Source: a virus
DNA: 34,436 nucleotides
Reading direction: 5' to 3' (one strand)
Virus record (IMG/VR): IMGVR_UViG_3300036859_000494
Coordinates: 1 to 34,436 of that record
Positions within the stretch are counted from its first letter, which is position 1. Each line of letters begins with the position of its first letter. The position numbers were made by a program, and so were the translations under genes. Below the pieces are notes generated by a model. The model was not told where the DNA came from. It saw nothing but the letters and a program-made list of their open reading frames with translations, and did not search any database. This document shows, piece by piece, positions 7,439 through 34,214 of this stretch.

Positions 7439-9433
7439 GTGGACCACGATTTCGGTGGTTTCGCGACGGCATTCGGCATCAAGTGCTCGGACGGGCGAAC
7501 GATCACGCCCGAAGCGTTCAAGCACATGGACAAGCAGCAGATCCCGCTCGTATGGCAGCACCAGCACAACACCCCGGACAATGTCTTGGGACATGCCACG
7601 CTGGAGCATCGCAAGACGGGGATGTACGCCTACTGCTACTTCAACGATACCGATGCTGCGAAGAGTGCCAGAGCACTCGTGGAGCACAAGGATGTCAATG
7701 CCCTCTCGATCTATGCCACGCAGCTGGTCGAGAAGAACAAGACAGTCCTGCATGGGGAACTGGGCGAGGTCAGTCTCGTTCTCAAAGGCGCCAACAGGGG
7801 CGCCAAGATCGACTATGTTCGTGTCGCTCATGGTTCGGGCGACGAAATGGAGATCGAAACTCTCGATGACGAGGCAATCATTCATTCGGGATTCGAGATC
7901 GAGCTCGTCGTGGAACATGCCGATACGGAAACGTATCAGGATGTTTTCAACACTCTGAACGACAAGCAGAAGGCTCTGTTCGAGGTCATGCTGTCGCAGG
8001 CTCTCGGTTCCGCCAAGCAGTCCGATGACAGCGAGGAGGACAAGGCCGAGGACGACAAGCAGGACGAGGAAACCGACGACAAGAAGACTGACGACGACAA
8101 GTCGGATGTCGAGCACAGCGACAAGGAAGGTACGATGACGCGCAACGTCTTCGAGAACAACAAGGACGCTTCGCCCGAGGACGGCGCGCGTACCGGCTCC
8201 ACGCTCACGCACGCCCAGATGTCCACCATCATCGACGACGCGAAGAAGCTGGGTTCCTTCAAGGAGTCGGTTCTCGCGCACGCGGGCGAGTACGGCATCA
8301 CCAACATCGAGGTCCTGTTTCCCGACGCCCAGGCCATCGACAACAAGCCCGAGTGGATCACGCGCAAGATGGCGTGGGTCGAGGGTGTTCTGAACGGTAC
8401 TCGGAAACTTCCCTTCTCCCGCATCAAGTCGCTCTCGGCGGATCTCACGTTCGAGACGGCGCGAGCCAAGGGTTACATCAAGGGCGATCTGAAGAAGGAG
8501 CAGTTCTTCGCTCTGTCGGCCCGGGAAACCACGCCGAAGACGATCTACAAGAAGCAGAAGCTCGACCGCGACGACATCATCGACATCACGGACTTCGACG
8601 TCGTCGCGTGGCTCTGGGTCGAGATGCGGTTCATGTTGCGTGAGGAGATCGCTCGAGCGATCCTCGTCGGCGACGGTCGCGAGGTCGACGACCCGGACAA
8701 GATCGACGAGACCAAGATCCGCCCGATCGCATTCGACGATCCCTTCTACACCGACGTCGTCAGTGTGCCGGCCAACGTGGATTCCATCGAGCTCGTCGAG
8801 GCGGTTCTGCGGGCCCGGGACAACTACAAGGGCACGGCACCGACTGCCTACATGACCAACGCCGTCATGGTCGACATGCTGCTCGCCAAGGACAGTCTCC
8901 GCCGGCGCTACTACAACACCAAGGCCGATCTGGCCTCGGCGCTGGGCGTCACCGAGATCGTCGAGGTTCCGATCATGGAGGGTGTCGAGCGTGACGGCGC
9001 CGAAGTCCTCATGATCATCGTCAATCTGTCGGACTACGCTGTCGGCTCCACCCGGGGTGGCGAGATCACCACGTTCGACGATTTCGACATCGACTACAAC
9101 CAGTACAAGTACCTGATCGAGGGTCGCATGTCCGGTGCTCTGACCCAGCACAAGCGGGCCCAGATCATCACGCGCGGCGCGGGCACGCTCGCGACCCCGA
9201 CGGTTCCGACCTTCGTGTCGGGCACTGGCGTCATCACCATTCCGACGGTCACGGGCGTCACCTACAAGACCCAGGAGACGGGTCCGCTGGGCGCCGCGGG
9301 TACCACCCTTTCGGCGGGTGCCCAGACCGCCCTGACCGCCGGTCAGTCGCAGTCGATCATGGCCGTCCCGAACACCGGCTACTACTTCCCGCACAACTTC
9401 GACGCCGACTGGGTCTTCACGCGTCCTGCGTAA
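7439..9433 (+). CDS. Fused prohead protease, scaffold and major capsid protein
   Basis: A 664-residue polyprotein. Residues 1 to about 150 are an HK97-type prohead protease: VWQHQHN supplies the catalytic His (41 or 43) and ALSIYA the Ser (Ser90). A helical region and a very acidic Asp/Lys-rich linker (about 196-231) resemble a scaffold or delta domain. Residues 233 to about 580 are an HK97-fold capsid subunit. Residues 586-664 are an extra beta domain shared with the major tail protein at 10062. The GTG at 7439 has AAGGAGA five bases upstream. An in-frame ATG at 8135 with its own AAGGAAGG lies exactly at the protease/capsid boundary, and codons become much more C-ending after it. The capsid protein is therefore probably also made alone. 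Confidence 0.88.
   Translation: MDHDFGGFATAFGIKCSDGRTITPEAFKHMDKQQIPLVWQHQHNTPDNVLGHATLEHRKTGMYAYCYFNDTDAAKSARALVEHKDVNALSIYATQLVEKNKTVLHGELGEVSLVLKGANRGAKIDYVRVAHGSGDEMEIETLDDEAIIHSGFEIELVVEHADTETYQDVFNTLNDKQKALFEVMLSQALGSAKQSDDSEEDKAEDDKQDEETDDKKTDDDKSDVEHSDKEGTMTRNVFENNKDASPEDGARTGSTLTHAQMSTIIDDAKKLGSFKESVLAHAGEYGITNIEVLFPDAQAIDNKPEWITRKMAWVEGVLNGTRKLPFSRIKSLSADLTFETARAKGYIKGDLKKEQFFALSARETTPKTIYKKQKLDRDDIIDITDFDVVAWLWVEMRFMLREEIARAILVGDGREVDDPDKIDETKIRPIAFDDPFYTDVVSVPANVDSIELVEAVLRARDNYKGTAPTAYMTNAVMVDMLLAKDSLRRRYYNTKADLASALGVTEIVEVPIMEGVERDGAEVLMIIVNLSDYAVGSTRGGEITTFDDFDIDYNQYKYLIEGRMSGALTQHKRAQIITRGAGTLATPTVPTFVSGTGVITIPTVTGVTYKTQETGPLGAAGTTLSAGAQTALTAGQSQSIMAVPNTGYYFPHNFDADWVFTRPA
8121..8137 (+). 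promoter_or_regulatory. Internal ribosome-binding site and ATG for the free capsid protein
   Basis: AAGGAAGG at 8123-8130 is followed four bases later by an in-frame ATG at 8135 inside the protease-capsid gene. Translation from here gives a 432-residue protein starting MTRNVFENN, the expected size of a mature capsid subunit. Internal starts that yield excess structural protein from a protease fusion are known in phage lambda (C/Nu3). Assignment here rests on the site, the domain boundary and the codon shift. Confidence 0.5.
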
Positions 9434-24505: not shown

Positions 24506-24737
24506 GCTCGATCCCTGGATGTGGTTTGTCATCATCCTCTTCGGGATACTGTGCGTGACCGTGATCGTTCTCGGATTTCTGGGAAGGCGTCGTGATCTCG
24601 CGAAGATGAAGTCGGAAATGCCGGAACTCCCCCCTGTTCCGGGATCCACCGAATGGACAACTGAATTGCTGAAGCAGCGAGACGATCGAATCATGGAGGT
24701 GATCAATGGCGATCAAGACGGTATTCAGCGCAGCTGA
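24498..24737 (+). CDS. Small single-helix membrane protein
   Basis: A 79-residue protein with an N-terminal membrane helix (WMWFVIILFGILCVTVIVLG), then a basic patch (RRRDLAKMK) and a polar, Pro-containing C-terminus (PELPPVPGSTEW, LLKQRDDRIMEVI). The GTG start overlaps the upstream stop by eight bases, and its end overlaps the next gene by 32. Tight coupling with the flanking membrane-protein genes suggests that the three work together at the membrane. The family is not recognised. Confidence 0.65.
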   Translation: MPELDPWMWFVIILFGILCVTVIVLGFLGRRRDLAKMKSEMPELPPVPGSTEWTTELLKQRDDRIMEVINGDQDGIQRS

Positions 24738-25482
24738 GAAATTTGTCGTCGACAACTCCCCCGGGATCCTGACGGGTCTCGGGGTAGCGGGTGCGGTGAC
24801 GACCGTGATCCTGACGGGGCGTGCGGCATGGCAGGCTGGTATGGACGCCAGCACGCAGTACCACGAGGCGCTGCGAGAAGGCGAGCCACTTCCGGAGCAT
24901 TTGCTGGAGACCGGTCATCTCGTCAAAACCTATTGGCGAGGATTCATCCCCGCGGGGATCTCCGGCGTGACCACCATCACCTGCATCATCGCCGCCAATC
25001 ACATCGGTGCGCGCAGGACGGCAGCCATCGCCGCGGCCTTCAGACTCTCGGAGAAGTTGACCGAGGAATACAAGGATCGCGTCGTGAAAGCACTCGGATC
25101 CCAGAAAGAAGAGAAGATGCGCTCCGAACTCACGAAAGAGCGCATGGAGAAAGCAGGGATTCCGGACAACATCATCATCGTGGGATCCGAGGTGTTGTTC
25201 TACGACGAACTGTCGGGACGGTTCTTCAAGAACGACATGGAGACCATTCGCAAAGCCGTCAATGATATCAATCATCAGGTCAACAATTTCTTCTCGGCAT
25301 CCCTGACCGATTTCTATGAAGCGATTGGGTTATCACCCACATCGTTCTCGGATGAAGTCGGATGGAATACGGACGAACTGCTCGACATCAAATTCTCGGC
25401 AACACTGCTCGATGGGAGTCGTCCGGCCATCGGTATCACGATCAACACATCACCAGTTCGCGGTTACGACCGCGTACAGTAG
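24706..25482 (+). CDS. DUF6353-like phage membrane protein
   Basis: A 258-residue protein with an N-terminal membrane part, NSPGILTGLGVAGAVTTVIL as the first helix and IPAGISGVTTITCIIAANHI as the second. A helical, charged stretch follows (LSEKLTEEYKDRVVKALG), then a soluble C-terminal domain (FFSASLTDFYEAIGLSP, VGWNTDELLDIKFSATL). This order matches phage proteins grouped as DUF6353, with no known function. A longer relative lies at 27145. GGAGGTGAT precedes the ATG, which overlaps the gene before it. Both helices together with the cytoplasmic domain suggest a membrane-bound phage factor. Confidence 0.7.
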   Translation: MAIKTVFSAAEKFVVDNSPGILTGLGVAGAVTTVILTGRAAWQAGMDASTQYHEALREGEPLPEHLLETGHLVKTYWRGFIPAGISGVTTITCIIAANHIGARRTAAIAAAFRLSEKLTEEYKDRVVKALGSQKEEKMRSELTKERMEKAGIPDNIIIVGSEVLFYDELSGRFFKNDMETIRKAVNDINHQVNNFFSASLTDFYEAIGLSPTSFSDEVGWNTDELLDIKFSATLLDGSRPAIGITINTSPVRGYDRVQ

Positions 25483-27144: not shown

Positions 27145-28044
27145 ATGACACTGATTCCCCCAACGGTCGCGAGCAAACTCGCCCGTCCGCTCCTGCATCT
27201 GCGGAAGCAATCTCCCCAAGTGATGTTCGCCGGTGGTGTTCTCGCCGCGGTGGGCTCAACCGTCCTGGCCTGCCGTGCCACCCTGAAACTCAGCGACGTC
27301 CTGTCTGAGACGGAGGAGCTCAAGGACAAAGCCGCCGCGATGGTCGGTGAGCGCGCCGATTACACCGAGAAGGAGTACAACCACGATCTGTTCGTCCTGA
27401 AGATCAAGACCGTCCTGAACATCACGAAGCTCTACGCGCCGTCGGCCGGCCTGATGGCGTTGTCATTGTCGCTCCTCACGGGATCCCATATCACCCTGAA
27501 TCGTCGGAACGCGAGTCTCACGGCAGCCTACGCGACGGTGGATCAGGCCTTCGAGAAGTACCGTCAGCGTGTCGTGGCGCAGCTGGGTATCGATGCGGAC
27601 CGAGACTTCCGGTACGGTACCGAGGTCGTCAGCGAGACCGTGGAAGGCGAGGACGGCAAGAAGAAGACGGTCAAGCACACGCGGGTCGACTCCAGCGAGG
27701 GCCCGTCGATGTACGCACGCTTCTTCGACGAGATGTGCAACGACTGGAAGAGGAATCCGGAATACAACCGCGCATTCCTACACTGCCAGCAGAACTTCGC
27801 GAACGAGAAGCTGAAGATCAATGGGCATATCTTCCTCAACGAGGTTTACGACGCGCTCGGGATCCCGAGGTCCAAGGAGGGCGCGATCGTCGGATGGGTG
27901 CTGGATGGCAACGGCGATGGCTTCGTCGACTTCGGTATCTTCGACGACTTGACCAATCCGCGTGTCCGGGACTTCGTCAACGGCCGGGAGTACTCGATCC
28001 TGTTGGACTTCAACGTCGACGGCGTCATCTACGACAAGATTTGA
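27145..28044 (+). CDS. Second DUF6353-like phage membrane protein
   Basis: A 299-residue relative of the protein at 24706. Two membrane stretches (SPQVMFAGGVLAAVGSTVLA and LYAPSAGLMALSLSLLTGSH) are followed by the conserved SLTAAYATVDQAFEKYRQRV, a middle with MYARFFDEMCNDWKRNPEYN, and the C-terminal domain FLNEVYDALGIPRSKEGAIV, VGWVLDGNGDGFVDFGIFDD, RDFVNGREYSILLDFNVDGV. The C-terminal FLNEVYDALG-VGWV-LLDFNVDG set is the most conserved part and corresponds to DFYEAIGLSP-VGWN-DIKF in the shorter protein. The function is unknown. AAGGACA precedes the ATG. Codon use is strongly C-ending, suggesting a well-expressed protein. Confidence 0.7.
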   Translation: MTLIPPTVASKLARPLLHLRKQSPQVMFAGGVLAAVGSTVLACRATLKLSDVLSETEELKDKAAAMVGERADYTEKEYNHDLFVLKIKTVLNITKLYAPSAGLMALSLSLLTGSHITLNRRNASLTAAYATVDQAFEKYRQRVVAQLGIDADRDFRYGTEVVSETVEGEDGKKKTVKHTRVDSSEGPSMYARFFDEMCNDWKRNPEYNRAFLHCQQNFANEKLKINGHIFLNEVYDALGIPRSKEGAIVGWVLDGNGDGFVDFGIFDDLTNPRVRDFVNGREYSILLDFNVDGVIYDKI

Positions 28045-28054
28045 GGGGGTCAGG

Positions 28055-28744
28055 ATGTCCAACCCCCGTTTGACTGCGATTGCTGTCGGCGCGGGCAGCC
28101 TCGTGGTCGGAATTGGTCTGGGCTACAAAATCGCTGAGAAGCGGTTATCTGCACAGTTCGAGCTCCGTCTCGAGAAGGAAACCGCAGGAATGCGGGAGTT
28201 CTACCAAAACACCAAGAAGCCCTATGCCACTCCACAAGAGGCGGCTGCGGCACTGATCGACGATGATGTGGATACCGGACAGGAAGCCACTGCGACTGTG
28301 GTGGGTGATAAAATCGCCTACCACAAGATCGTCAAGAAAGAATACGCACCCCAGGAGGCTTTGGTGGACCTTCCTGACCAGACGGATCGAATTCCGGAAC
28401 TCGAGCATCACAACGTCTTCATTGAAGAGCCGATCATCATCTCGCAGGAGGAGTTCATGCAGAACGACTCCGGATACGAGCAGAGCACACTCTCGTTCTA
28501 CCGAGGCGACCATGTCCTGACAGACGAGCGGGAGAACGTGATCGAGGATCTGAACGAGGTGGTCGGCGCGGAGAACATGACGAGGTTCGGTCAGAACTCG
28601 AGTGATCCGAACGTCCTGCACATCCGCAATGGTCGCCTCCAGATGGACTTCGAAGTGTGTCTGAGTGAGGGCTCCTACAGTCAGGAAGTCTTGGGGATCG
28701 ACGAGGTTCCCCAGGAACTCCCGAGCGGCCGTAAGAGAACATGA
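28055..28744 (+). CDS. Membrane-anchored conserved phage protein
   Basis: A 229-residue protein with one N-terminal membrane helix (AIAVGAGSLVVGIGLGYKIA), a charged helix after it, a variable acidic middle, and a conserved C-terminal domain: EEFMQNDSGYEQSTLSFYRG, DHVLTDERENVIEDLNEVVG, NVLHIRNGRLQMDFEVCLSE. The C-terminal domain is familiar from phages of several Gram-positive hosts and is not functionally assigned. GAGGGGGTCAGG precedes the ATG. Its stop overlaps the next gene (ATGA), linking the membrane island to the replication module. Confidence 0.65.
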   Translation: MSNPRLTAIAVGAGSLVVGIGLGYKIAEKRLSAQFELRLEKETAGMREFYQNTKKPYATPQEAAAALIDDDVDTGQEATATVVGDKIAYHKIVKKEYAPQEALVDLPDQTDRIPELEHHNVFIEEPIIISQEEFMQNDSGYEQSTLSFYRGDHVLTDERENVIEDLNEVVGAENMTRFGQNSSDPNVLHIRNGRLQMDFEVCLSEGSYSQEVLGIDEVPQELPSGRKRT

Positions 28745-29271
28745 TGTCCTCCGGAAATCTTGACGATCGCTACTTCCGATGGCTCTATGGGTTGGTGGCG
28801 GACGTCAAGATCCGGAAAGGTCCCCATACTCATTGGAACTTACTGCATCAACTCTTCGAGATCGAATTCGCGTGGTTCGTTCCGAATGACGACAACAGAG
28901 CGGAAGATGGTCGAGAGCTCCGTGTAGAATGGGCATCTTCCGAAGAGGCCCAGGTGGATTCTCACTGGGCGTCTCGAGGCTGTTCGTTTCTCGAGATGCT
29001 GATCGGATTGTCGAGGCGACTTGAGTTCCAAACAGAGCAAGATGTGGTGTTTTGGTTTTGGCATCTCATCGGAAATATGGGGCTTCTGGGATACAATGAT
29101 CGAGCCATATTTGCTGAGGAGGAGGTGCAGGATCGTGTGTTCGTAGTGATCTGGCGGAATTACGATCGCTATGGCAACGGCGGTTTGTTTCCTCTTCGGT
29201 ACACTCAAACAGATCAGCGCAAAGTAGAGATCTGGCGCCAGATGAATGAGTACTTGCTACAAGATGGGTGA
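28741..29271 (+). CDS. Conserved phage protein of unknown function
   Basis: A 176-residue soluble protein of a common phage family. Recognised segments are DRYFRWLYGLVADVKIRKG, WNLLHQLFEIEFAWFVPNDD, NRAEDGRELRVEWASS, SFLEMLIGLSRRLEF, VVFWFWHLIGNMGLLGYND and YGNGGLFPLRY, ending in a Lys/Arg/Trp stretch that includes VEIWRQMNEYL. It has many conserved aromatics, and no catalytic motif that I can name. It overlaps the gene before it (ATGA) and lies nine bases before the replication polyprotein, so it may take part in DNA replication. Confidence 0.65.
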   Translation: MMSSGNLDDRYFRWLYGLVADVKIRKGPHTHWNLLHQLFEIEFAWFVPNDDNRAEDGRELRVEWASSEEAQVDSHWASRGCSFLEMLIGLSRRLEFQTEQDVVFWFWHLIGNMGLLGYNDRAIFAEEEVQDRVFVVIWRNYDRYGNGGLFPLRYTQTDQRKVEIWRQMNEYLLQDG

Positions 29272-29280
29272 GGAGGTTGT

Positions 29281-32200
29281 GTGGATTTCTACAAGATTCA
29301 GGTTGACCAGAAGAAAAACGGCGACACTGTCGTCTCACCCAATTTTGTGGTCGGGAAATCGAAAGATCTGATGGTGCGGGGGCGTTCGTTTTACGCCATC
29401 TGGGACGAAGAAGCAGGATTGTGGTCGACGGACGAGTATGATGTCGCTAGAATCGTTGATCAAGACCTGCAGAATTACGCCAGTCAGAATGCGTCCGACG
29501 CCACCGTCCTCACCATGCGGAACTTTCGCAGCAAATCATGGATCGACTATCGTTCATTGATCGCTAACATCCCCGACAACGCTCGACAGCTAGATCAAAA
29601 TCTGACCTTCGCCGATCAGGAGGTCAAGCGGTCCGATTACGTGAGTCGGCGTCTTCCCTATTCGCTGGGGTCGGGAGATTACTCCTCGTGGGACGAGCTT
29701 GTCGGGACGCTGTATTCAGTGGAGGAACGGAGGAAGATCGAATGGGCGATTGGATCGATAGTTTCGGGGGATTCGAAGAAGATCCAGAAATTCTTCGTGT
29801 TCTATGGGAAGCCAGGGAGTGGCAAAGGCACGATTATCTCGATTATTCAGAAGTTGTTCGAGGGCTACGTCGCGACCTTCGAGGCGAAATCTCTCGGTTC
29901 TACGAACAACTCCTTCGCGACGGAAGCGTTCAAAAGCAATCCGCTAGTGGCGATCCAACACGATGGAGATTTGTCGAGGATCGACGACAACACACTGCTC
30001 AATTCGATCGTGTCGCACGAAGACTTGCGCATGAACGAGAAATACAAACCGAGTTACACCGGACGCGTGAACGCAATGTTATTCATCGGCTCGAACAAGC
30101 CGGTGAAGATCTCCGACGCGAAATCAGGCATCATCCGGCGCTTGATCGATATCCATCCGACAGGTGTCATGATTCCCCACAATCTCTACAACACCCTGAT
30201 GAGTCGAGTGGACTTCGAGCTCGGAGCGATCGCCCAACACTGCCTCGACGTCTACCGAACCTTTGGTAAGAACTACTACAACGACTACCGCCCTACCGAA
30301 ATGATGTTCCAGACCGACATCATCTTCAATTTTGTCGAGGCTTCGTATGATGTGTTCAAATTCCAAGATGGAGTGACACTCAAACAAGCCTACGACATGT
30401 ACAAAGAATACTGTAGCACAACCGGCATCGACAAAGCACTCCCGCAATACAAATTCCGAGAAGAACTGAAGAGTTACTTCACTGCGTATCATGAGCGCAT
30501 TGAGGTTAACGGCGAAAACAAGAGAAATTACTTCGCCGGATTCAATGCTTCTCATTTCAAGAAACTGACCGTCGAGGAAGAAGAGATCTTCTCGTTAGTT
30601 ATTGATGACAAAATATCATTGCTTGATGAAGAACTGGCTGAGCAGCCTGCGCAACTGTCCAGCCCTGATGGAATTCCTTCGATGTCATGGTCGAACGTGA
30701 CGACGAAACTGAAGGACATTGACACACACGAGGAGCATTATGTCCTCGTCCCCCCGAATCACATTGTGATTGATTTCGATTTGAAAGGAGAGAATGGTGG
30801 GAAGGCACTCGCTCGTAATCTCCAAGCGGCGTCGCTTTGGCCAGCGACGTATGCGGAGTTGTCTAAATCTGGTCAAGGTGTTCATCTCCATTACGTGTAT
30901 GATGGGGATGTCACACAGCTGTCTCGCCTCTTCTCCGAAGGCATCGAAGTCAAGGTATTCACTGGCAAGGCTTCGCTCCGTCGGCGGCTCACCAAGTGCA
31001 ATACCGTCCCTGTGGCCACGATCAACAGTGGCCTTCCGCTCAAGGAGAAATCCAACGTGCTTCACGCCGATACGATCCGCAGTGAGAGGGGTCTGCGCGA
31101 TCTTATCGCGCGTAATTTCCGGAAAGAAATCCACCCCGGAACCAAGCCCTCCATCGACTTCATCGCCAAGATCCTCGACGACGCCTACACTTCCGGACTC
31201 CAGTTCGACATCACCGATCTACGACCGAAGATCATTGCCTTTGCAAATAACTCAACCAATCAGGCACTGGCCTGTCTCAAGGTCGTACAACGAATGCGCT
31301 TCTCGAGTGAGGAGGTACCTGGATCCCAACCAGTTCCCGCCTCGATCGTTGTGGACGACCAACCCCTGGTTTTCTTCGACTGCGAAGTTTTCCCCAACCT
31401 GTTCGTGATCTGCTGGAAGTACCGAGAATCCGACACGATCGTCAAGATGATCAACCCTTCTCCCGCCGACGTGGAGGTCTTGATCAAACTGAAACTCGTC
31501 GGCTTCAACAACCGGCGATTCGACAACCACATGCTCTATGGATGCTATCTCGGTTACAACAACCAGCAGTTGTACGAATTGGCGCAGCGTCTCATCAACG
31601 GGAAATCAGGGGCGGCGTTTGCCGCGGCCTATGGATTGTCCTACACGGACATCTATGATTTCTCCAGCATCAAGCAGTCGTTGAAGAAATTCGAGATCCA
31701 ACTGGGGATCCCTCACATGGAACTCGACATTCCCTGGGATCAACCAGTCCCCAAGGAGTTGTGGGACAAGGTTGTCGAATACTGCTGCAATGATGTGGCC
31801 GCCACGGAAGCAGTTTTCGAAGATCGTGAGCAGGACTTCGTCGCTCGGCAGATTCTTGCGGAACTGAGTGGACTCACCGTGAACGACTCCACAGCAAGGC
31901 ACACTGCCCAAATCATCTTCGAGGGTGACAAGAATCCCCAAGCTCAATTCATCTACACGAATCTCACGAATGAATTCCCCGGGTACGTGTTCGACGCCGG
32001 CAAGTCCACCTTCATGGGGGAAGAGGTGGGCGAGGGTGGGTACGTGTATGCCGAACCCGGGATGTACGAGAATGTTGCCCTGTTGGATGTCGCATCGATG
32101 CACCCCACGTCATTGATCCATCTGAACATGTTCGGCGACCGCTACACCCAAAACTTCAAGGGTCTGATGGATGCTCGCCTCGCGATCAAGCATCAGGACT

Positions 32201-33012
32201 ACAAGACTGCTCGAGAAATGCTGGGCGGAAAACTGCAGCCTTATCTCAAAGATGAGAGCACGGCGAAAGCACTTTCGTATGCATTGAAGATCGTCATCAA
32301 TATTGTCTATGGTCTGACCAGTGCGACGTTTGACAGTCCCTTCCGAGACAAACGCAACAAGGACAACATCGCCGCCAAGCGCGGTGCATTGTTCATGATC
32401 CAACTGAAGCGTTATGTCCAGGATCTCGGATACAAAGTCGTCCATATCAAGACCGACTCGATCAAGATCGCCAATGCCGATGATGAGATCGTGGATCTGA
32501 TCTTCGAGTACGGCGAGAAATACGGGTACACTTTCGAGCACGAAGAGACCTACAATAAATTCTGTCTCGTCAACGATGCGGTCTATATCGCGAAATCCGA
32601 ACACGGAGATAACATCGAATGGAAAGCGGTCGGGACACAGTTCAAAGTACCCTACGTCTACAAGACTCTGTTCTCCGGTGACGTCATCCTGCGCCAAGAT
32701 CTTGCGGAGACCAAACAAGTCTCCAAGGGTCACATGGTGCTCATCTTCCCGACAGGCCCACATTTCGTCGGACGGACAGGTCGTTTCGTCCCGGTCACCG
32801 AGGCTTCGGGAGTGGGTGGGCGACTTGTGCGGAAGATGGACGACAAGGAATACGCAGTAGCGGGTACTAAAGGCTACCTGTGGATCGAATCGGACATGGC
32901 GAATCGCATGGGGATGGAGCTCGACATCGATCATTCCTACTTCGAGAAATTGGTCGAGGACGCCAAGGCCACCATCGAGAAATTCGGATCCTTCGAGGAG
33001 TTTGTGTCATGA
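29281..33012 (+). CDS. Fused SF3 helicase, primase-like domain and family B DNA polymerase
   Basis: A 1243-residue replication protein. Residues about 150-340 are an SF3/D5-type helicase: Walker A GKPGSGKGT at 176-184, an acidic Walker B in AIQHDGD (228-230) and motif C in LFIGSNKPVK. Residues about 480-600 look like an archaeo-eukaryotic primase core: VIDFDLKG (Asp498, Asp500), SGQGVHLH (His535, His537) and GIEVKVFTG (Glu556). From about 695 a family B polymerase follows, with exonuclease motifs FDCEVF (Asp700, Glu702), GFNNRRFDN (Asp748) and YCCNDV (Tyr834, Asp838), then polymerase motifs DVASMHP (Asp936), KIVINIVYG (1003-1011) and KTDS (Asp1059). Motif C has Lys in place of the usual first Asp. 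The GTG start has AGGAGGT three bases upstream. Confidence 0.85.
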   Translation: MDFYKIQVDQKKNGDTVVSPNFVVGKSKDLMVRGRSFYAIWDEEAGLWSTDEYDVARIVDQDLQNYASQNASDATVLTMRNFRSKSWIDYRSLIANIPDNARQLDQNLTFADQEVKRSDYVSRRLPYSLGSGDYSSWDELVGTLYSVEERRKIEWAIGSIVSGDSKKIQKFFVFYGKPGSGKGTIISIIQKLFEGYVATFEAKSLGSTNNSFATEAFKSNPLVAIQHDGDLSRIDDNTLLNSIVSHEDLRMNEKYKPSYTGRVNAMLFIGSNKPVKISDAKSGIIRRLIDIHPTGVMIPHNLYNTLMSRVDFELGAIAQHCLDVYRTFGKNYYNDYRPTEMMFQTDIIFNFVEASYDVFKFQDGVTLKQAYDMYKEYCSTTGIDKALPQYKFREELKSYFTAYHERIEVNGENKRNYFAGFNASHFKKLTVEEEEIFSLVIDDKISLLDEELAEQPAQLSSPDGIPSMSWSNVTTKLKDIDTHEEHYVLVPPNHIVIDFDLKGENGGKALARNLQAASLWPATYAELSKSGQGVHLHYVYDGDVTQLSRLFSEGIEVKVFTGKASLRRRLTKCNTVPVATINSGLPLKEKSNVLHADTIRSERGLRDLIARNFRKEIHPGTKPSIDFIAKILDDAYTSGLQFDITDLRPKIIAFANNSTNQALACLKVVQRMRFSSEEVPGSQPVPASIVVDDQPLVFFDCEVFPNLFVICWKYRESDTIVKMINPSPADVEVLIKLKLVGFNNRRFDNHMLYGCYLGYNNQQLYELAQRLINGKSGAAFAAAYGLSYTDIYDFSSIKQSLKKFEIQLGIPHMELDIPWDQPVPKELWDKVVEYCCNDVAATEAVFEDREQDFVARQILAELSGLTVNDSTARHTAQIIFEGDKNPQAQFIYTNLTNEFPGYVFDAGKSTFMGEEVGEGGYVYAEPGMYENVALLDVASMHPTSLIHLNMFGDRYTQNFKGLMDARLAIKHQDYKTAREMLGGKLQPYLKDESTAKALSYALKIVINIVYGLTSATFDSPFRDKRNKDNIAAKRGALFMIQLKRYVQDLGYKVVHIKTDSIKIANADDEIVDLIFEYGEKYGYTFEHEETYNKFCLVNDAVYIAKSEHGDNIEWKAVGTQFKVPYVYKTLFSGDVILRQDLAETKQVSKGHMVLIFPTGPHFVGRTGRFVPVTEASGVGGRLVRKMDDKEYAVAGTKGYLWIESDMANRMGMELDIDHSYFEKLVEDAKATIEKFGSFEEFVS

Positions 33013-33431: not shown

Positions 33432-33684
33432 CAACGACCTGGCGAGAATCGCCGATGCCCTGAAGGGAATCGAACATCACCTGAAGGACGCCGTTCGCAT
33501 CTGGGAGACCATCAACGAGAACCTCGCTCACACCGGTCGGACACTCCACGGATGGCTCGAGGTCGCATCTCCCGACAACGAAGATGAAGTGCAGCTGATG
33601 GTCGGTGGTCATCAGATCCCGGTCCGGATCACCAGGAGCGTGGATCCGGGCGAGGTTCGCATCATTCCTCGAGATGACACCTGA
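33424..33684 (+). CDS. Small unknown protein
   Basis: An 86-residue protein with an N-terminal helix (DLARIADALKGIEHHLKDA, then RIWETINENLAHTGRTLHGW) and a C-terminal beta stretch (EVQLMVGGHQIPVRITRSV). GGAGGAG lies upstream. Its stop overlaps the next start as TGATG, placing it in the same transcript as the probable single-strand DNA-binding protein. The family is not recognised. Confidence 0.55.
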   Translation: MSNNDLARIADALKGIEHHLKDAVRIWETINENLAHTGRTLHGWLEVASPDNEDEVQLMVGGHQIPVRITRSVDPGEVRIIPRDDT

Positions 33685-34214
33685 TGGCAAAGAACGATCG
33701 CAACCGGACACTCGAGGACATCACCATCGCGTTCCGGAACTTCGCCGGCAAGGAGGACATGTACAATCGCGCCGGCGATCGGAACTTCGCCATCATCCTC
33801 GATCCTCAGGATGCGGAATCTCTGATCCGAGACGGTTGGAATGTCAAGCACCTGAAAGCGAGGGATGAGGGCGAGGAACCTCAACCTTACATCCAGGTCG
33901 CCGTCTCGTACAAGAATCGCCCACCCAAGATCTGCATGGTCACCAGCAAGGGCATGACCTACCTCACCGAACAAGAGGTCGAGATGCTGGACTGGGTGGA
34001 CATCGAAACGGCCGATGCCACTCTCAATCCGTACGAATGGGTCGTGAACGGTAAGGCCGGCGTGAAGGCCTATCTGCAGACTCTGTTCGTCAAGATCGAA
34101 GAGGACTATCTGCAGCTCAAGTGGACGGCCATTGTCGAGGACTCGAAACGTGGCCAGCTCGCGCTCGAGGGAAATGAACCATTGGTTGTCGAAGGTGAAT
34201 ACGAGGTGAACTGA
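33684..34214 (+). CDS. Probable single-stranded DNA-binding protein
   Basis: A 176-residue protein of a phage family found beside replication genes: RTLEDITIAFRNFAGKEDMY, NRAGDRNFAIILDPQDAESL, GWNVKHLKARDEGEEPQPYI, VAVSYKNRPPKICMVTSKGM, VEMLDWVDIETADATLNPYE, AGVKAYLQTLFVKIEED, then LQLKWTAIVEDSKRG. The mix of strands with aromatic and basic positions and a variable end fits an OB-like binding protein. Its place after the polymerase and in the same transcript supports this. It is not a bacterial-type SSB, and the DNA-binding role is an inference. Confidence 0.55.
   Translation: MAKNDRNRTLEDITIAFRNFAGKEDMYNRAGDRNFAIILDPQDAESLIRDGWNVKHLKARDEGEEPQPYIQVAVSYKNRPPKICMVTSKGMTYLTEQEVEMLDWVDIETADATLNPYEWVVNGKAGVKAYLQTLFVKIEEDYLQLKWTAIVEDSKRGQLALEGNEPLVVEGEYEVN

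Follow-up and report, generated by a model that had tools for sequence, protein, structure and literature searches.

A predicted HelPrimPolB replicase joining helicase, primase and family B polymerase domains in a tailed-phage fragment

The window analyzed here is the whole of virus record IMGVR_UViG_3300036859_000494, a stretch of 34,436 bases, and it carries at 29281-33012 on the + strand an open reading frame of 1243 aa, which runs in a single frame without internal stop from a GTG start, with AGGAGG four bases 5' of that start. A search of the 34,436-base record for a second near-identical copy of this gene found none. Terminase, portal, head protease, major tail and tape measure genes lie upstream, and because of these genes we regard the window as a fragment of a tailed phage. 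The encoded protein aligns end to end with GP55 of Lactococcus phage 1706 (YP_001828703; 38% identity, 57% similar, 1317 columns, E=0), which has been purified and shown to be a helicase, RNA primase, DNA polymerase and 3'-5' exonuclease (Zhang et al., 2025, PMC12205980). The features of the locus are listed below, with conservation given among 185 full-length family members.

28741..29271, + strand: conserved gene directly upstream of the replicase gene (PHROG match, phrog_4678)
29281..33012, + strand: predicted HelPrimPolB replicase, 1243 aa (phrog_4210, 'DNA polymerase', E=0 over residues 1-1242; GP55 homology)
29281..30555, + strand: SF3/D5-type helicase module with N-terminal collar region, residues ~1-425 (DUF5906, fold matches)
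29806..29832, + strand: Walker A GKPGSGKGT, residues 176-184; K182 (GP55 K189) invariant
29962..29970, + strand: Walker B acids D228 and D230, conserved
30607..31044, + strand: AEP/PriS-like primase core, residues ~443-588 (AlphaFold model, fold search)
30772..30780, + strand: AEP motif I, D498-x-D500; D500 is GP55 D509; both invariant (185/185)
30883..30891, + strand: AEP motif II, H535-x-H537; H535 in 185/185, H537 in 183/185
30946..30948, + strand: AEP motif III acid E556, invariant
31084..31290, + strand: four-helix domain corresponding to the GP55 aHD, residues ~602-670 (helices in model, alignment)
31378..31386, + strand: Exo I, D700-x-E702 (GP55 D712/E714), invariant
31507..31524, + strand: Exo II, residues 743-748; D748 invariant
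31780..31794, + strand: Exo III, Y834-x3-D838, invariant
32086..32088, + strand: PolB motif A Asp936 (GP55 D949), invariant
32287..32313, + strand: PolB motif B, K1003-x3-N1007-x2-Y1010-G1011; K/R, N (184), Y and G conserved
32449..32460, + strand: PolB motif C KTDS, residues 1057-1060, with a non-canonical first residue; in all 185 and in GP55
33684..34214, + strand: phage ssDNA-binding/annealing protein (PF24083 E=5e-61, phrog_4787)

Within the replicase the domains are ordered as an SF3/D5-type helicase (~1-425), an AEP domain (~443-588), a helical domain (~602-670) and a PolB domain with exonuclease (~690-1243). This is the order of helicase, primase-like domain and PolB that the earlier note had proposed, and it is backed by the sequence throughout and by structure models for the helicase and primase parts. 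The Walker A motif and D498, D500, H535, H537 and E556 all lie at the positions given in that note, and the exonuclease and polymerase motifs of family B which it had reported are likewise present (D700/E702, D748, Y834/D838, D936, K1003/N1007/YG and KTDS). The motifs are far beyond chance, as judged from the full-length PHROG match and from the catalytic residues that are invariant in the 185 full-length proteins (K182, D498, D500, H535, E556, D700, E702, D748, D838, D936 and D1059). Furthermore, all of the catalytic residues mutated in GP55 are kept, with K189, D509, D712, E714 and D949 corresponding to K182, D500, D700, E702 and D936, respectively.

Profile searches of the N-terminal module gave DUF5906 (E=2e-12) and a weak Pox_D5 match. 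The model of residues 1-440 (pLDDT 91.5) was closest in fold comparison to the SaPI5 primase-helicase 7ola (Z 22.0, rmsd 4.4, 370 aligned), with vaccinia/mpox D5/E5 at Z ~19, and these matches span nearly the whole model, including the collar region. The features of an N-terminal SF3 helicase are conserved, namely K182, D228, the sensor Asn N272 and the Arg finger R286/R287. The position of D228 holds D or E in 185/185 full-length members, and that of D230 holds D in 178/185 and N or K in the other 7. In GP55, the K189A mutation abolished unwinding (PMC12205980).

The primase-like middle domain was the weakest assignment of the earlier note, which had named a primase-like fold in residues 480-600 as the feature to look for. 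An AlphaFold model of residues 430-695, built from an alignment of 71 relatives, has a mean pLDDT of 91.9 and contains this fold; in a Foldseek search the PrimPols of phage NrS-1 and plasmid pRN1 took all of the top ten PDB places (E 1e-4 to 2e-3), with the next-ranked match at E 0.4. Comparison by VIA-align 2 aligned model residues 14-159 (replicase residues 443-588) and gave Z 10.0 against NrS-1 PrimPol 6a9w (rmsd 3.5, 140 aligned) and Z of about 7 against pRN1 PrimPol. Rows of lower Z included the cyanophage S-2L PrimPol, a CRISPR-associated Prim-Pol, the LigD polymerase and archaeal and eukaryotic PriS; because HP0184, whose annotation is unrelated, scores 6.8, these lower rows are not decisive alone. 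Taken together with the invariant D498, D500, H535 and E556, these results bear out the assignment, and the central AEP (PrimPol) domain carries motifs I-III as in the HelPrimPolB/GP55 family. A Pfam Prim-Pol match to the window protein falls below the cut-off, sub-threshold matches of this kind recur across 47 of 72 family members, and a profile search of this region against PDB sequences matched no AEP structure; it was fold comparison that revealed the domain, in keeping with a divergent AEP. Matches of the same region to CRISPR Csf1, lactococcin immunity and N-myristoyltransferase (E 0.1-0.8) were discarded as chance.

Between the AEP and PolB domains lie the four helices that correspond to the GP55 aHD, where Y655 and F667 are required for priming (PMC12205980). 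F654 aligns with F667 and is conserved, and F642 (window 31204-31206) aligns with Y655; Phe is found at this position here and in 10 other members (11/185). The change from Tyr to Phe is a mild one. It is unlikely, though conceivable, that F642, with the other departures from GP55, changes how priming proceeds, for example in start site or nucleotide preference, and marks a clade of soil phages with a distinct priming mode. A fold search with the helical domain returned only helical bundles with Z under 6, which is background for helical folds, and these were dropped as an indication of its fold identity.

The C-terminal part has the Exo I-III and A-C motifs of a PolB, as read from sequence motifs, and DNA polymerase II matches (PDB, NCBIfam) fall around motifs A to B. 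Only Lys1057 is at odds with a textbook family B enzyme, as it replaces the Asp that stands first in motif C of most such enzymes. The presence of KTDS in the loci recovered by pattern scan and from bacterial assemblies is partly by construction, as the KTDS pattern was one of two search patterns used; the IMG/VR relatives (up to 82% identity) were located with other patterns, and all of these carry KTDS too. KTDS as a sign of a broken polymerase was considered and rejected, for GP55 carries the motif and polymerizes efficiently; GP55 is made polymerase-dead by D949A (PMC12205980).

The best explanation of these data is that the gene almost certainly encodes a tailed-phage replicase of the HelPrimPolB group which, by homology to GP55, would combine unwinding, priming and proofreading synthesis. 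The AEP domain could instead be a catalytically dead relic, such that the fusion would be only a helicase-polymerase and the host would prime, a reading that the sub-threshold Prim-Pol match and the failure of sequence profiles to find an AEP structure would fit. We consider it very improbable, given that D498, D500, H535 and E556 are unchanged throughout the 185 members, that the predicted fold is AEP, and that the GP55 counterpart is an active RNA primase which is killed by D509A (PMC12205980).

It is barely credible, in addition, that the PolB domain starts DNA synthesis alone while the AEP domain serves another step. This would liken it to the primer-independent PolBs (piPolBs), whose trait of a motif C without the first Asp is present here as KTDS in all members; piPolBs are active despite this absence (Kazlauskas et al., 2020, PMC7544198). 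However, GP55 carries KTDS and still depends on a working primase domain for de novo DNA synthesis, as mutants lacking one make no such DNA, isolated GP55 PolB requires primers (PMC12205980), and the HelPrimPolB group was placed in the main PolB assemblage (EpsilonN-like clade), outside the protein-primed/piPolB cluster (PMC7544198). KTDS thus marks neither a dead nor a primer-independent polymerase, because GP55 polymerizes efficiently with this motif and needs its AEP domain for de novo synthesis. From full-length homology to GP55, the window protein likely belongs to the same EpsilonN-like clade.

For the HelPrimPolB replicase, then, we infer the same four activities as in GP55. The SF3/D5-type helicase module would unwind the duplex and would also power strand displacement and oligomerization; the AEP domain, together with the helical domain that follows it, would prime the exposed strand with short RNAs; the PolB domain would extend these primers with proofreading; and the neighboring ssDNA-binding protein would coat the single strands. 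The protein would also replicate its own phage genome.

Of the 10 relatives checked, 9 have the gene for the ssDNA-binding protein downstream of the replicase, 8 have the phrog_4678 gene in its position directly upstream, and most maintain the order DUF6353 - phrog_4695 - phrog_4678 - replicase. The earlier note had supposed that, were all three parts active, the single-strand binding protein and small partners would be all that was left to encode. This supposition is not supported: the window, a 34.4 kb fragment, ends shortly past the ssDNA-binding protein gene and is therefore no evidence for the absence of further genes, and a second gene annotated as a helicase lies downstream both in the complete phage 1706 genome and in the near-complete RosaAsantewaa stretch. 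Two DUF6353/phrog_2152 paralogues at 24706-25482 and 27145-28044 have diverged (22.5% identity, E 6e-7), and both, reported as within 3 kb 5' of the replicase, recur in most relatives with their order kept. Separately, a 664-aa gene at 7439-9433 is matched from end to end by phrog_3270 ('head maturation protease') and, more weakly, in its second half by phrog_7080 (major head protein, residues 343-569), and from these matches it looks like a protease-major capsid fusion.

The replicase is matched by 354 phage records, and in 252 of these the match spans 80% or more of the protein; identity reaches 61% in the best phage records, and the majority bear the annotation 'DNA primase/polymerase'. The pattern scan of IMG/VR gave at least 567 confirmed related stretches, and the family is also found in bacterial assemblies, mostly of Clostridia, in prophage-like loci. 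The 165-aa product of Streptomyces phage Rainydai gene 53 (L051 1971-2468) bears the same annotation misleadingly; it is a stand-alone, shortened version of the helicase core, with 27% identity to residues 136-337 of the window protein, in which Walker A is kept but internal parts are lost, and it lies upstream of the full-length replicase, gene 57. The rarity that the earlier note implied for the helicase-primase-PolB order is not supported; at least 252 phage records carry the protein, the group already has a name, and the replicase is a further member of a widespread, already described family whose architecture is not new. That one polypeptide can unwind, prime, copy and proofread is striking biologically and useful for DNA amplification, a point which GP55 has already made; the window sequence contributes a GC-richer, more compact HelPrimPolB relative, and the survey found the family, with essentially invariant catalytic residues, in prophage-like bacterial loci as well as in hundreds of phage contigs.

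The earlier note had suspected that related phage fusions were already in databases, and rightly so: the HelPrimPolB group had been named for its domain order, with its motif C noted as atypical (Kazlauskas et al., 2020, PMC7544198), and the homologue GP55 has been characterized biochemically. GP55 is a dimer in solution, unwinds in a UTP/dTTP-dependent manner, makes RNA-only primers with a preferential GTP start at CCAAC, and copies ssM13 (single-stranded DNA) de novo (Zhang et al., 2025, PMC12205980). The window protein resembles GP55 in its domains and their order, the mutated catalytic residues, the KTDS motif C and the downstream SSB gene; it differs in being 74 aa shorter and 38% identical, with F642 for Y655 and a more compact C-terminal region. 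With the HelPrimPolB group as a whole it shares an SF3 helicase and PrimPol N-terminal to PolB and the atypical motif C, and no tested feature differs. Gordonia phage Artorias gp62, Rhodococcus phages ReqiPoco6/ReqiPepy6 gp072 and Streptomyces phage RosaAsantewaa gp39 are 57-61% identical over the whole length, have the same neighbor genes as the window and differ by sequence divergence only; the name under which the actinobacteriophage proteins were deposited, 'DNA primase/polymerase', leaves out the helicase. The NrS-1 and pRN1 PrimPols and the SaPI5 and poxvirus D5 primase-helicases have the AEP and SF3/D5 helicase folds in common with the replicase, but in these proteins the AEP domain precedes the helicase and PolB is absent, whereas in the window replicase the helicase leads, and another helical domain stands in place of the PrimPol helix-bundle domain.
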